From positions 1-20,821 of the IMG/VR virus record IMGVR_UViG_3300018426_000202: a DNA stretch of 20,821 nucleotides; one strand, written 5' to 3'. Under the pieces are notes generated by a model. It was not told the origin of the DNA. It saw only the letters and a program-made list of their open reading frames with translations, and searched no databases. Source of the stretch: a virus. The translations under genes and the position numbers were made by a program. Shown here in pieces: positions 5,005 to 18,010 of this stretch. Position 1 is the first letter of the stretch. Each line of letters opens with the position of its first letter.

Positions 5005-8000
5005 ATGGCAAATAATTCAATCTCACAAATAATCAGACAGTTTCTGGAAATGAACCAGAACTCTTTAGAGAACTATGAAAAAATCTCTGAAGCAATCACA
5101 ACTGATAAGAAAACTGTATCTCTAGATTTATTCGATGAGCAAGGTACTCTTAGAACGGTTCAAGTACCTGCGTTCGGTTATTTGAAGCGTGAGATTGAAA
5201 GACTAGACCAAAACTTTAAATCACTTTCAGGTATTGGTTCTGGTGATGCTTCTGTTAGAATGGCCGACGGTACGTTTAGACAAATTCAAAAGTCTAAACT
5301 TAAAACGCCTGCTAACCCTGTAACGAATATTACAACACCTGTTGAATTCGTAGCAACTACAAACAACTTCTTTGAATCATTTCTTAATCCATTACTACAA
5401 GTACAACTTAATGTTAATAGTCAAATTAGTACAGGTACTGAAAAAATCAAGTTAAGAAGATACATCATTGATTCTAATGACGCCGCTTCTGCTGAATGGT
5501 TTGACGGTAACCTTAAGGGTTTAGACAACCTAGAAGTCAATAATATGATTTCACAACTAGAGACTGCTGGTATTAAATACATTCTTGATGAAGAAGTTAT
5601 TGATGCTCCGGTAAGGTCTACTAAATACTATGGTGGTTTCAATGTTATTAAAGTTAGAACAGCTCAAAGAAACATTGTAGTAGATGGTGTTACTCAAACT
5701 AAGACTGTAAAGCTATACACTTTAGATAAATTCTCTTATTCAGATGCTGATAAATCAATGTCTGAAACAGAATCATTAAGAGTAAATGACGAACTACTAG
5801 TTAACTCTGGTAATAATTCTACTAAATATAAAGTAGTTGCACTTAACTCGGATACTCTAGAGGTTGAATTACTTCTTGTTGAGGGTTACGAGTCTATTAA
5901 AGTTGGTGCTGACCAATTAAAGATTTATAAAGGTAAAGAAGCTTATGAAGCTATTGATGTTTCAGTAGGCTTTGACGAAAGACTAGTTGCATTTATTAAA
6001 CCAGTTGACCCTGAATCAAATATTGAAGCAGAAGTATGGTCACCGGGTACTGCATTCTATTCTAATGACCTTATAATTACTAGAGAAAATGGCGAGGTTC
6101 AAACTCTTGCTGATTACTATAAAGCTGAAGTTTCTGACTTTGGTCAATTTATTAAAGCTCTTAAAGAGGATTCAATCCCACCAGCAACAGTTGGAGTTGC
6201 ACCAGATGCACCCCAGGTGGACGCAGACAGCTTTAAAGTTGTTCAGGTTAATACACACTTAACTAACAGCAAGTCCTTCCAGAAGGTACAGCAACTTAGT
6301 TCTAATAAGATTGCAACTGAAACTAAAATTAAAAGTTTAGATGATACTCTTGCTAAAAAGAGGTCTGAAGTTGCTACTAAGAAATACTCTTCATCTATTG
6401 AAAGAGATAGAGATAGAAACGAATTAAATTCAATGCTAAATGAAAGAGCAGCGGAATCTAAGCTTTACTCTTCATTAGTTAATGAAATTAAATCTGTAGC
6501 AAGCGATAACGCTATTCAAAGTATTGCACCTAAGTACAGAGTTCGTGGTTTCTTCCCGATGCCAACAGCTAAACTTGCAGGTGATACAATACCTCAAGAG
6601 GTTGTACAATTTAAAATTCAATACAGATACCTATCACAAGATGGTACTCCATCTGATGTTAATCAAATCCAAACTACAATTGACGGTTCTACAACTACAG
6701 GTGTATTTTCAAATTGGATTGAAGTTGCGTCAAAGGCTAGAAAAAGAATTAAAGACCAAGTAACTGGTAAGTATATTTGGGCAACTGAAGCTATTGAGAA
6801 CGGGCAAGAGGTTAATATTAACCAAATCGATATTCCAATTCAAGCAGGTGAAATTGTCGAGTTTAGAGTTAAGTCCCTATCTGAAGCGGGATGGCCAGCT
6901 AATCCAGTAGAGTCTGAGTGGTCTGATATTACTAGAATTGAATTTCCAGCTTCTGCACAAACTAATGATGCTGTTGTTTCTTTAATTGATGAAAACTCTA
7001 AAGAGATTGCTAAAGTAGAGCTTATTAGTGAGCTTGAAAGCAAGGGTGTTTATGCACATATTAATGATTCTTTTATCGCTAACGAAAAGTATTTCGTACA
7101 CGAAGCTCAAAATATTGCATCAGGTTTCTTAACAGCTGAGCAAAGTCCTATCAATCTATTTGAGAAGCTTACTCAGATGCAAAACGAAATCAACGCACTT
7201 AAAGAGCAAATTGCTGGTACTGTTGGTGAACTTGCAGTTAAGATTCAGTATGAAGATGGAACAACTGAAATTATTCAAAACAATACAGTTAAGTCTATAT
7301 TCGCGGGGTATTACACTGACGAAGTTAAAGACCTAACTATTAAGAAGGGTCACATTGTAACTAAGACGTTTAAGATTCTTCTTGAGAATTCTAAAGCTAC
7401 ACCGCTTGAACTTATTTCAAGACTTGCTGGTGATAGAAAGTCTTCCGTATATGCTTCTTCTACTAACAACATATTCGGTGTTAAACCAAATACAACTAGT
7501 TTAGATTCAGCTATTGCTGCGGATTCATTCTACCTATCACAGGGTAGATACGATATGGTGCCTGTTATCTATCAGAATACATCGGCTGTTGAATTTACAA
7601 CATCAGACTTTTTAAATGATGCGCCGTATCAATCAGGTCAACTAAAGGGTCAATTTGCTTATTCTAGATTTAGAAACATTTCAAACAGCGGTGATTTATA
7701 CACTACTGATGATTTAATTGCAGCTGATATAACGGCTGCGATTCAATATGAAACATCTATGTGGAATCTGCTTTCACAGACGTATGGTAATGTAGCGAAT
7801 GATGGTTACATTTGGACAGGTAGATGGGATTCTAATGATAATCCTGAAGCAACAATACCTGCTTGGGTTAGCCAAGGTAATCAAAGTTACGATAATGGTT
7901 TACATGTCCATAAAGACCACCCAATACTTAAGACTACTACAACATTTAATGATGTATACCAATCAGGAGCAGGTATTGTACAGGCTAAAGCAGCTGGTAT

Positions 8001-8406
8001 AAATAATATTCAATCAGCATACTATTTAGATGTTAATGAAAATAGAACTATTAAAACATCATTTGACCCTAATGACCAATACTTATTAGGTGGTAAATCG
8101 TGTGGTTCTTACTTGTTCATGTCGCCACTATCTATTGAATCGCTTTCAGTTGATGCTGACAATACGTCGGGTAAATATGTAGTTAATTCAGGTGAATCTA
8201 ATGCTATTGCAATTGACGTTGTATTCCAATATAGAATGACTGATTATGCTGGTACATCTGATTCAAACCTAGGTTTTGTTGGTGGTATCGAATCGACTCC
8301 TGTATCTAATCTAACTTACTCTAAAAAGATTGGTTTAGATATCTTAGATGTTGACAACAATAAATTCTCATTTGACTTAGAGGTATTTGCGAAGTACACT
8401 GCGTAA
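5005..8406 (+). CDS. Large coiled-coil virion structural protein with FN3-like domain
   Basis: 1133 residues. ATG follows the previous stop by 1 nt (TAAGATG). Residues 1-75 are strongly helical (QIIRQFLEMNQNSLENYEKI, then FGYLKREIERLDQNFKSL), followed by a conserved-looking RMADGTFRQI at 85-94. A second long coiled coil spans about 419-505 (KIATETKIKSLDDTLAKKRS through RDRNELNSMLNERAAESKLY). Residues about 506-649 look like a fibronectin-III/Ig-type beta sandwich, with VEFRVKSLSEAGWPANPVES and a following SEWSDITRIEF strand. A third helix lies near 717-737 (LFEKLTQMQNEINALKEQIAG). The rest is beta-rich. No enzyme motif, signal peptide or membrane span is seen. The architecture suits an elongated baseplate or tail-fibre component. 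I do not recognise the family, and the functional call rests on context and architecture. Confidence 0.5.
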   Translation: MANNSISQIIRQFLEMNQNSLENYEKISEAITTDKKTVSLDLFDEQGTLRTVQVPAFGYLKREIERLDQNFKSLSGIGSGDASVRMADGTFRQIQKSKLKTPANPVTNITTPVEFVATTNNFFESFLNPLLQVQLNVNSQISTGTEKIKLRRYIIDSNDAASAEWFDGNLKGLDNLEVNNMISQLETAGIKYILDEEVIDAPVRSTKYYGGFNVIKVRTAQRNIVVDGVTQTKTVKLYTLDKFSYSDADKSMSETESLRVNDELLVNSGNNSTKYKVVALNSDTLEVELLLVEGYESIKVGADQLKIYKGKEAYEAIDVSVGFDERLVAFIKPVDPESNIEAEVWSPGTAFYSNDLIITRENGEVQTLADYYKAEVSDFGQFIKALKEDSIPPATVGVAPDAPQVDADSFKVVQVNTHLTNSKSFQKVQQLSSNKIATETKIKSLDDTLAKKRSEVATKKYSSSIERDRDRNELNSMLNERAAESKLYSSLVNEIKSVASDNAIQSIAPKYRVRGFFPMPTAKLAGDTIPQEVVQFKIQYRYLSQDGTPSDVNQIQTTIDGSTTTGVFSNWIEVASKARKRIKDQVTGKYIWATEAIENGQEVNINQIDIPIQAGEIVEFRVKSLSEAGWPANPVESEWSDITRIEFPASAQTNDAVVSLIDENSKEIAKVELISELESKGVYAHINDSFIANEKYFVHEAQNIASGFLTAEQSPINLFEKLTQMQNEINALKEQIAGTVGELAVKIQYEDGTTEIIQNNTVKSIFAGYYTDEVKDLTIKKGHIVTKTFKILLENSKATPLELISRLAGDRKSSVYASSTNNIFGVKPNTTSLDSAIAADSFYLSQGRYDMVPVIYQNTSAVEFTTSDFLNDAPYQSGQLKGQFAYSRFRNISNSGDLYTTDDLIAADITAAIQYETSMWNLLSQTYGNVANDGYIWTGRWDSNDNPEATIPAWVSQGNQSYDNGLHVHKDHPILKTTTTFNDVYQSGAGIVQAKAAGINNIQSAYYLDVNENRTIKTSFDPNDQYLLGGKSCGSYLFMSPLSIESLSVDADNTSGKYVVNSGESNAIAIDVVFQYRMTDYAGTSDSNLGFVGGIESTPVSNLTYSKKIGLDILDVDNNKFSFDLEVFAKYTA

Positions 8407-14216: not shown

Positions 14217-14975
14217 ATGATTAATATAAACATAAATAAAGATTGGATTCCCTTTATAGTAATTGCAGTACTTGCATTTATATTATTGGGGCAGTGTTCT
14301 ACAAACTCAGCACTTAGGGAAGACAAACGTGTTCTTGTGACTCAGGTTGAGAATGCTAAATCTAACCTAAGAGCTTCACAAGATTCTGTTGAGCTTTATA
14401 TTAATCAAAATAATTTCTTAGAAGCTGAAATCAGCACTTACGCTGCAACTGCTAAAGAATTAAAGGAAGAATACAATGGTATGCTTAAAAAATACCAAAA
14501 AGCACTTGGTGTTAATAAACAACTTGAAAATGTAAACTCTTTACTTTCAGCTGAGCTTAGAAACAAAGACAGTCTTTTAATTAATGCTAATATAAACGCA
14601 GATTCAACCTTTACATTTAAAGATTCAGTTGATTATGGTGATAACAATACAAGAGTTGTTACATTAGATGGTATGATTAAAGATTCTACAGTTATAGGTA
14701 AATTATCAATATACCAAACAATTACTCTATTGACTGCTCTCGAAAATGAGGACGGTGTTAATAGAATGAGGATAAGCACAAAATACCCATTTGATGATAT
14801 TAAAATTGAAGGAATAAATATCATCAATAATGAGTTGAATACATATAAGAAGAAGAGCAGGTGGAACATGAACTTTGGGATTGGATATGGAATCTTCCCG
14901 GTTAATGGAACCATTCAACCGTCACCATTTGTAGGTGTTATGTTTGGATATTCACCTAAATGGCTTCAATTTTAA
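14217..14975 (+). CDS. Membrane-anchored coiled-coil protein with outer-membrane-like C-terminus; possible spanin
   Basis: 252 residues. Residues 10-26 (WIPFIVIAVLAFILLGQ) form a single hydrophobic segment after a short lysine-containing N-terminus, predicting an inner-membrane anchor with the rest in the periplasm. C27 follows LGQ, but Gln at -1 is not a good lipobox, so a lipoprotein is unlikely. Residues about 32-125 are helical coiled coil (LVTQVENAKSNLRASQDSVE through NKQLENVNSLLSAELRNKDS). The C-terminus has two amphipathic strands rich in Gly and aromatics (WNMNFGIGYGIFPV at 216-229, PFVGVMFGYS at 237-246) and ends in Phe, as beta-barrel proteins do. Coiled-coil proteins with this layout occur in Bacteroidota phages and prophages. 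I infer an envelope-spanning protein that could act in lysis, like a one-piece spanin. It lies among tail genes, so a virion role is the alternative. Confidence 0.45.
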   Translation: MINININKDWIPFIVIAVLAFILLGQCSTNSALREDKRVLVTQVENAKSNLRASQDSVELYINQNNFLEAEISTYAATAKELKEEYNGMLKKYQKALGVNKQLENVNSLLSAELRNKDSLLINANINADSTFTFKDSVDYGDNNTRVVTLDGMIKDSTVIGKLSIYQTITLLTALENEDGVNRMRISTKYPFDDIKIEGINIINNELNTYKKKSRWNMNFGIGYGIFPVNGTIQPSPFVGVMFGYSPKWLQF

Positions 14976-17078: not shown

Positions 17079-17630
17079 ATGATATTAAATAGTAGAAGTA
17101 ACTTATTTAACTTTAAGTTTCCTAAGAACTTTATACCTAAAGAGGTTGCTGACAAATATCGTCCTTATTTGAACAGATTACCAGGTAATATAATCGAAGA
17201 ACCTATTGATTTCATTAATTATACTATCCAAGGTGTTTCAATGCCAGGTATTTCATATACACCTGCTGAGCAGAATTTCAATGACGGTACTACAGTGTAT
17301 AAAAGAGGATACCAACCGGTTCAAAACTTAATTAACAGAGAACTAACAGTTACAATGCAGTTATTAGACGGCTTTATTAACTATTGGATTCTTTCAGATG
17401 CTTTATTGTACCATTATAACAGACAGAATGAAAAGTCTTATATTGACGACCTTAAGTTACAACTATTAGATGCCGAAGGTATTCACTTAATGTCGGTTGT
17501 ATTTGAGAAGCCTATTATGAATTCTATTTCTGAGCTTGACCTTAATATGGCACAAAATGTAGCAGAGTTTAACACAGTCAGTGTAACATTCTTCTATAAC
17601 AAGTTCAATTTGATTAATGAATTACAGTGA
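17079..17630 (+). CDS. Tail-tube-fold tail or baseplate protein (T4 gp19/gp54-like), tentative
   Basis: 183 residues, ATG after TAACTAGAT; a weak AAGG lies 11 nt upstream. The order of segments matches the tail-tube fold of T4 gp19 and related baseplate-tube proteins. An N-terminal strand pair leads into a loop with Pro-Gly (INYTIQGVSMPGI, residues 46-58). A strand then precedes an amphipathic helix (RELTVTMQLLDGFINYWILS). The last strands are DLKLQLLDAEG, SVVFEKPIMNSISELDL and FNTVSVTFFYNKF. T4 gp19 ends in the same strand-turn-strand plus aromatic pattern. I infer a tube protein or a tube-initiating baseplate component. Since only one such gene is visible, it may be the initiator (gp48/gp54 type) rather than the main tube subunit. 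The next gene begins 11 nt after the stop. Confidence 0.5.
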   Translation: MILNSRSNLFNFKFPKNFIPKEVADKYRPYLNRLPGNIIEEPIDFINYTIQGVSMPGISYTPAEQNFNDGTTVYKRGYQPVQNLINRELTVTMQLLDGFINYWILSDALLYHYNRQNEKSYIDDLKLQLLDAEGIHLMSVVFEKPIMNSISELDLNMAQNVAEFNTVSVTFFYNKFNLINELQ

Positions 17631-17641
17631 TATATAATAAT

Positions 17642-18010
17642 ATGAAAACTTTTTTAACATACTTAGAAGAACAAAACGTAACTCAAGCTGACCTTCAAGC
17701 TATCAATGAGTCACTAGAACAGGAATGGACACCTGAGCTAGAAGCTAAAATTGATGAAGCTGTCGATGCATTCTTAGCTGATTACGTAAATGAAGATGGT
17801 TCTTACGACTTAGAAAGATTCAATGCTGAGGTAACTAACGAAGGAGTTCTTGGTTCAATCATCGGTGGTCTTACAGGTTTTGCACTGGGTAAATCAGTTG
17901 GTAAGATTGTTGCTAAAGTACTAGGTATTCAAAAAGGTGTATTCTACGATTTATTAACTTCAAGACTAGTTGGTGCCGCTCTAGGCGCAGCGCTTGGTAA
18001 AAAGCTTTAA
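17642..18010 (+). CDS. Small glycine-zipper protein with capsid-targeting-like N-terminus
   Basis: 122 residues from the ATG at 17642. A GTG at 17627 would add five residues but overlaps the previous stop, so ATG is preferred. The N-terminus MKTFLTYLEE resembles the capsid-targeting sequence of T4 internal proteins (MKTYQEFIAE type), and INE at 21-23 fits the hydrophobic-X-Glu pattern cut by T4-type prohead protease. Residues 11-66 are acidic and helical. The C-terminal half has two glycine zippers: G71, G75, G79, G83, G87 at four-residue spacing (GSIIGGLTGFALGKSVG), and G111, G115, G119 (GAALGAALG), separated by a basic/hydrophobic segment. Such helices can pack in membranes. Possible roles are an internal head protein ejected with DNA, or a holin-like protein; the N-terminal motif favours the former. 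No family is recognised. It closes the structural block and directly precedes the resolvase gene. Confidence 0.5.
   Translation: MKTFLTYLEEQNVTQADLQAINESLEQEWTPELEAKIDEAVDAFLADYVNEDGSYDLERFNAEVTNEGVLGSIIGGLTGFALGKSVGKIVAKVLGIQKGVFYDLLTSRLVGAALGAALGKKL

Follow-up and report, generated by a model that had tools for sequence, protein, structure and literature searches.

The window, by which I mean the whole 20,821-nucleotide stretch of viral DNA analysed (a 20.8 kb fragment), carries on its forward strand an open reading frame at positions 17642–18010 that starts with ATG, stops with TAA and encodes a CTS-tagged double glycine-zipper protein of 122 residues (CTS, capsid-targeting sequence; hereafter referred to as the zipper protein). 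Besides G53, its glycines are at residues 68, 71, 75, 76, 79, 83, 87, 95, 99, 111, 115 and 119, and the translation bears out the exact positions that a preliminary description had given for two zippers, with five glycines at 71–87 and three at 111–119. The parts of the protein, all on the forward strand, begin with the capsid-targeting-like peptide MKTFLTYLEE (residues 1–10, 17642–17671), which includes a first L-x-E site. A second L/I-x-E site, I-N-E, is a candidate for cleavage (residues 21–23, 17702–17710), and is followed by an acidic segment of net charge −12 (residues 24–67, 17711–17842). The sequence TNEG, a candidate third cleavage site (residues 65–68, 17834–17845), leads into a basic C-terminal half (+6). 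Conservation and modeling place a first helix at residues 69–94 (17846–17923), with the glycine zipper 71–87, and a second helix spans residues 100–119 (17939–17998), with the signature TSRLVG (106–111) and the zipper 111–119.

The zipper gene lies between a tail-tube-family gene (PHROG_45; 17079–17630, forward strand), its constant upstream neighbour, and genes for a RuvC-like protein and gp32. In all of the 80 nearest loci, retrieved via the tail-tube protein, it is found directly downstream of the tail-tube gene, within 300 nt in 76 and at ∼330 nt in four, which makes it a core gene within the close clade. In a larger set it directly follows a tail-tube gene, no more than 500 nt upstream, in 229 of 238 loci. 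This position would be expected if the protein served in the tail or baseplate, perhaps in the tail tip or tube lumen as a part that contacts the membrane. However, position alone is weak evidence for such a role, since RuvC and gp32 also adjoin the zipper gene; the CTS-type N-terminus and the protease sites are features of head proteins, and a distant homologue in the phage Lak-C1 is not beside the tail-tube gene, leaving a tail role quite improbable. Also beside tail genes, window positions 14217–14975 encode a protein of 252 residues; it has a hydrophobic segment near its N-terminus and weak matches of DUF6808/spanin-like type.

An octamer resembling a late promoter, GATATATA, is located 5 nt before the ATG (17629–17636, forward strand), and overlaps the upstream gene's stop codon. 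The motif ATATATA is enriched 11–17-fold upstream of open reading frames in three relatives, where it precedes the portal and protease genes and several genes with the N-terminal tag, and GATATATA is likely to be a late promoter. The octamer occurs upstream of many open reading frames in three related contigs (G001–G003), and stands so near the ATG of the zipper gene and of several tagged genes that their messages would be almost leaderless. A GTG at 17627 was considered as an alternative upstream start, and rejected, as it spans the stop codon of the neighbouring gene and is not conserved.

A scan of viral contigs confirmed 312 relatives of the zipper protein; in a second one, for which the zipper domain served as query, at least 482 loci emerged. 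This is a real and widespread family of T4-like marine viruses, previously unnamed. The window protein has no match above cut-off in PHROGs, Pfam or NCBIfam, and a search of T4 found no homologue, in agreement with the preliminary description, which knew of no T4 counterpart. No relative was confirmed in GTDB genome contigs, and hence neither a prophage nor a host copy came to light. Beyond the close clade the family is not universal: no homologue was found in Tenacibaculum phage pT24, Flavobacterium phage MaF61 or the huge uncultured phages LR745206 and LR756501, so that no cultured carrier is known from this analysis. A homologue is present in the 462 kb phage LR756500, and a single distant one in the Prevotella phage Lak-C1. 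Aside from LR756500, the phage collection has its nearest capsid proteins in Lak phages of Prevotella, and the tail proteins match those of Tenacibaculum and Flavobacterium phages; the protein matches therefore indicate that the hosts are probably Bacteroidota.

Conservation was counted in 63 distinct homologues of the same length class. Residues T3, F4, E23, T65-N66-E67-G68 and G71, G75, G79, G83, G87, G111 and G115 are invariant, and G119 is found in 62. Nucleotide changes in the reading frame are mostly at third codon positions, and it is under constraint at the protein level. Across 63 diverged loci, identity to the window is 80% in the zipper half (residues 68–122), 68% in gp32 and likewise in the tail-tube protein, 56% in the N-terminal half of the zipper protein and 47% in RuvC. 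Within its neighbourhood, no piece is better conserved than the zipper domain. That it exceeds gp32 in conservation, unlike the variable internal proteins of T4, favours an essential role over superinfection exclusion, and the protein probably has a constrained, essential function, in DNA entry or in head structure. The preliminary description had also proposed a block to superinfection, which this conservation and the core status of the gene make less likely. More generally, an ejected effector acting at the host membrane, in superinfection exclusion or anti-defence, would have a role comparable to that of the T4 internal proteins, one of which, IPI, is ejected and acts against restriction (PMC3012670), and some of the other CTS-tagged proteins described below (a GNAT acetyltransferase, an ATP-grasp/RimK-like ligase) are effector-like. 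However, the T4 internal proteins are diverse (PMC3012670). In the zipper family, by contrast, no part is more conserved than the mature domain, and the gene is core, making such an effector improbable.

The N-terminus had been noted to resemble the CTS of T4 internal proteins, and the resemblance holds in register. In the T4 record, ipII and ipIII start with MKTYQEFIAE and ipI with MKTFKEFTSTTTPVSTITE; MKTFLTYLEE shares with these K2, T3, an aromatic residue at positions 4 and 7, I or L at position 8, and E10. Among the 63 homologues, position 4 is always F, position 7 is Y in 54, L in seven and H in two, and E10 is kept in 54, with D, A or S in the other nine. The starts found across the family (MKTFxxYLxE, MKDIKTFKEYLQE, IKTFNAYLTE and MKTYEEFINE) bridge the T4 form and the consensus of the local phages, and MKTYEEFINE, from divergent homologues, is nearly the T4 peptide.

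As the window is a fragment, the tag and the head genes were examined in its relatives. All four related contigs tested (104–150 kb) encode gp23 (PF07068) and a gp21-type protease that passes the PF03420 cut-off; the protease gene is not within the 20.8 kb of the window. In the two contigs analysed in detail, the portal gene is followed by a small acidic gene, a protease fused to an acidic scaffold-like region, and the capsid protein gene, with the portal named by position and T4 gene order rather than by family search. The protease and the acidic scaffold-like region form one long open reading frame at L087:11307–13367 and in its relatives, and at L310:3899–5653; in T4, by contrast with this apparent fusion, genes 21 and 22 are separate.

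Open reading frame starts and interiors were scanned for the tag motif [KR]x[FYL]xx[FYHL][ILVM]xE. In the relatives it is 24–57 times commoner at starts than in interiors (Fisher p = 9.5e-11 in contig G001, IMGVR_UViG_3300031705_000001, and 1.3e-6 in G002), and is carried by 3–9 proteins per genome, with the consensus MKHIKLFEQFINE in the related contigs and MKYIKEYEEFINEA in LR756500. The preliminary description had suggested searching other genes of the phage for the same N-terminus, and in the relatives this search is positive. As controls, the same scan applied to 63 kb of T4 picked out ipII and ipIII and no other protein, and gave no match in crAss001. A strict search for MKTF had made the tag appear unique to the zipper gene, an impression overturned once a few leading residues were allowed. 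Among the genes with this tag are the one that separates portal and protease (MKIIKTFEDFITE, KTFEDFITE), the one following gp23, and those for a GNAT acetyltransferase and an ATP-grasp/RimK-like ligase. Some matches of the MNNHKLTKKLQVLLSE type may be due to chance. In contig G001, head-targeting-like tags of the MKHIKLFEQFINE type are found on several unrelated proteins (L082:10600–11553, L083:5007–5354, L087:10912–11250 and L087:14992–16560), the ligase and the acetyltransferase among them, which are candidates for ejected effectors.

In the T4 CTS, residues 4 and 7 serve targeting and residues 8 and 10 processing, and cleavage occurs after L/I-x-E, releasing propeptides of 10–19 residues (PMC9026906). 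The N-terminus of the zipper family fits these residue roles, the cleavage motif and the propeptide length. [LI]xE is found at positions 8–10 in 47 of the 63 homologues. At positions 21–23, where an I-N-E site had been pointed out, [LIV]xE is present in all 63 (strictly [LI] in 59), while residues 11–23 are otherwise the least conserved part of the protein, with 37% mean identity. Members of the family with shifted spacing still carry LNE or INE. E23 is therefore the best candidate for cleavage, and resembles the ITE-19 site of T4 ipI. As a refinement that the preliminary description did not contain, there is a third possible site, NE|G, which lies at 67/68. NE|G itself is invariant, but with T at P3 in most members it departs from strict L/I-x-E; divergent homologues carry I, V, M or L there instead. 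The tag of other proteins, moreover, can end in [IV]NE|G. Cleavage at this candidate site would split the acidic part (−12) from the basic part (+6). With the tag and the gp21-type protease of the relatives, the fit to L/I-x-E and the strict conservation of E23, the head targeting first proposed from the N-terminus appears well supported.

In three loci (L200, L201 and L236), the zipper half is located behind a different N-terminal part, with the module NGMGxVSLP...GSGD[VI]P (for example at L201:4536–5192). One other protein per relative genome has this module (phmmer E-values down to 1e-11; G001 84238–85056), as has, more loosely, the N-terminal arm of gp23 (G001 113482–114861), and the shuffled expectation for the core pattern is 0.02. 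In one carrier it stands directly before an internal tag (GSGDVPAG...KKKRMKHLKTLESFISEG). The module may thus be a second head-related tag. Directly after the zipper homologue of L201, positions 5198–8051 hold small genes starting with MRNLYTYLTEE, MKSLSYYITEA, MKSLYDYITEA and MKSLKFYLEES, a cluster of tag-bearing genes. The distant homologue of Lak-C1 (L310:9856–10182; record positions 152855–153181) has an internal tag-like stretch, KKVYDYIVEA, lies ∼4 kb from the prohead protease gene rather than beside the tail-tube gene, and adjoins two genes resembling further internal or membrane proteins.

A PDB profile search and Foldseek gave no significant match for the zipper protein. AlphaFold2 modeled residues 68–122 alone with moderate confidence (mean pLDDT 72), as helices 69–94 and 100–119, while the full-length model (51.9) is too poor for use. 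In helix 1 the stripe of small residues extends to A91 and G95, with lysines at 84, 88 and 92. The best 19-residue hydropathy is 1.36, compared to the usual transmembrane cut-off of 1.6, and the usual rule therefore does not predict membrane insertion, which is nevertheless possible. A small protein with two hydrophobic glycine-rich helices and a late-promoter-like site might be thought a holin or other lysis protein. Nevertheless, a hydropathy below the transmembrane threshold, a mostly acidic N-terminal half of 67 residues, the CTS with its conserved protease sites, and the lack of a match to any holin family make this highly unlikely.

What can be read directly from the sequence is the tag, the protease and capsid genes of the relatives, the conserved sites, the zipper hairpin and the core status in the close clade. 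The explanation I favour, which I give about an even chance, is a late core protein that is loaded by its CTS, processed by the prohead protease and ejected, and whose zippers oligomerise at the host membrane and aid genome entry. In this proposal, the protein would be expressed late in a T4-like lineage probably infecting Bacteroidota, and its N-terminal capsid-targeting sequence would load it into the prohead. A gp21-type protease would then cut after [LI]xE, most likely at E23, possibly at E10 and perhaps at E67|G68. The mature product would be the basic C-terminal half, folded into a helical hairpin that bears the two glycine zippers; it would exit the head together with the DNA, oligomerise in or on a host membrane and help the genome across. 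Of these steps, packaging in the head is very probable and processing by the prohead protease probable; ejection with action at the membrane is evenly balanced, a pore being plausible. Against this explanation, the gene is beside tail genes and outside the head cluster, no classical membrane-spanning segment is predicted (hydropathy 1.36), E10 is replaced in nine of 63 homologues, the 67|68 site is off strict L/I-x-E, the full-length model is poor, and pT24, MaF61, LR745206 and LR756501 gave no match.

A more specific version, which I regard as speculative and unlikely, is a self-contained precursor, loaded by the CTS, in which the acidic half would shield the basic zipper half, keeping it soluble and neutral inside the prohead. 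The protease would release residues 68–122 at NE|G, and the freed hairpins would, after ejection, build a DNA-entry channel in the cytoplasmic membrane of hosts of this T4-like lineage. Alternatively, it is possible, though rather doubtful, that the protein is CTS-packaged but never membrane-active, its zippers packing protein against protein in the scaffold core, at the portal region or in the condensed DNA. Such a structural protein of the head interior would agree with a CTS and late-promoter-like site common to core genes, high conservation, core status and borderline hydropathy, as well as with the Lak-C1 homologue near the protease gene, and the lysine stripe 84/88/92 could bind DNA. However, long uninterrupted GxxxG zippers are more typical of membrane or membrane-associated helices, and the protein showed no similarity to gp22, gp67 or gp68.

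To my knowledge, the route by which the DNA of T4-type phages crosses the inner membrane is not settled, and under the favoured explanation of ejection and genome entry, a conserved head-tagged zipper protein provides a concrete candidate for DNA entry in a common marine lineage. One tag on enzymes, core proteins and the zipper family indicates capsid targeting well beyond the T-even phages, and with such a shared tag it would be possible to predict ejected proteins from sequence.

Several known systems can be compared. The GxxxG pattern is common to the zipper protein and the Pfam glycine-zipper domains (PF13488 Gly-zipper_Omp, PF05433 and PF13441). PF13488 is matched by 26 of 46 members (best E-value 3.5e-5), with the window protein at 17.3 bits, below the 25-bit gathering cut-off; the second helix with TSRLVG is not part of PF13488. 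A literature search for glycine-zipper ejection proteins found nothing relevant. T7 gp14 and P22 gp7 are small virion proteins with helices that have been suggested to make a pore in the membrane through which DNA enters (PMC8954989), a likeness of working only; they belong to a different type of phage. Gp14-like proteins have 2–5 predicted transmembrane helices (PMC8954989), and gp14 is not known to carry a CTS; the zipper protein has no transmembrane helix by the usual threshold (hydropathy 1.36). Closest are IPI, IPII and IPIII of T4, with which the zipper protein shares an N-terminal peptide in register with MKTYQEFIAE/MKTFKEF, an L/I-x-E site 10–23 residues in, and, in its relatives, a gp21-type protease. 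T4 internal proteins are highly diverse, with the CTS alone conserved (PMC3012670), but such variability, a descriptive rather than a defining trait, is not what is found for the zipper domain, at 80% identity and above gp32. Unlike theirs, the mature part is a glycine-zipper hairpin, unrelated, strongly conserved and core. The CTS tag is already known; what is new is a conserved zipper family that probably has an essential role.
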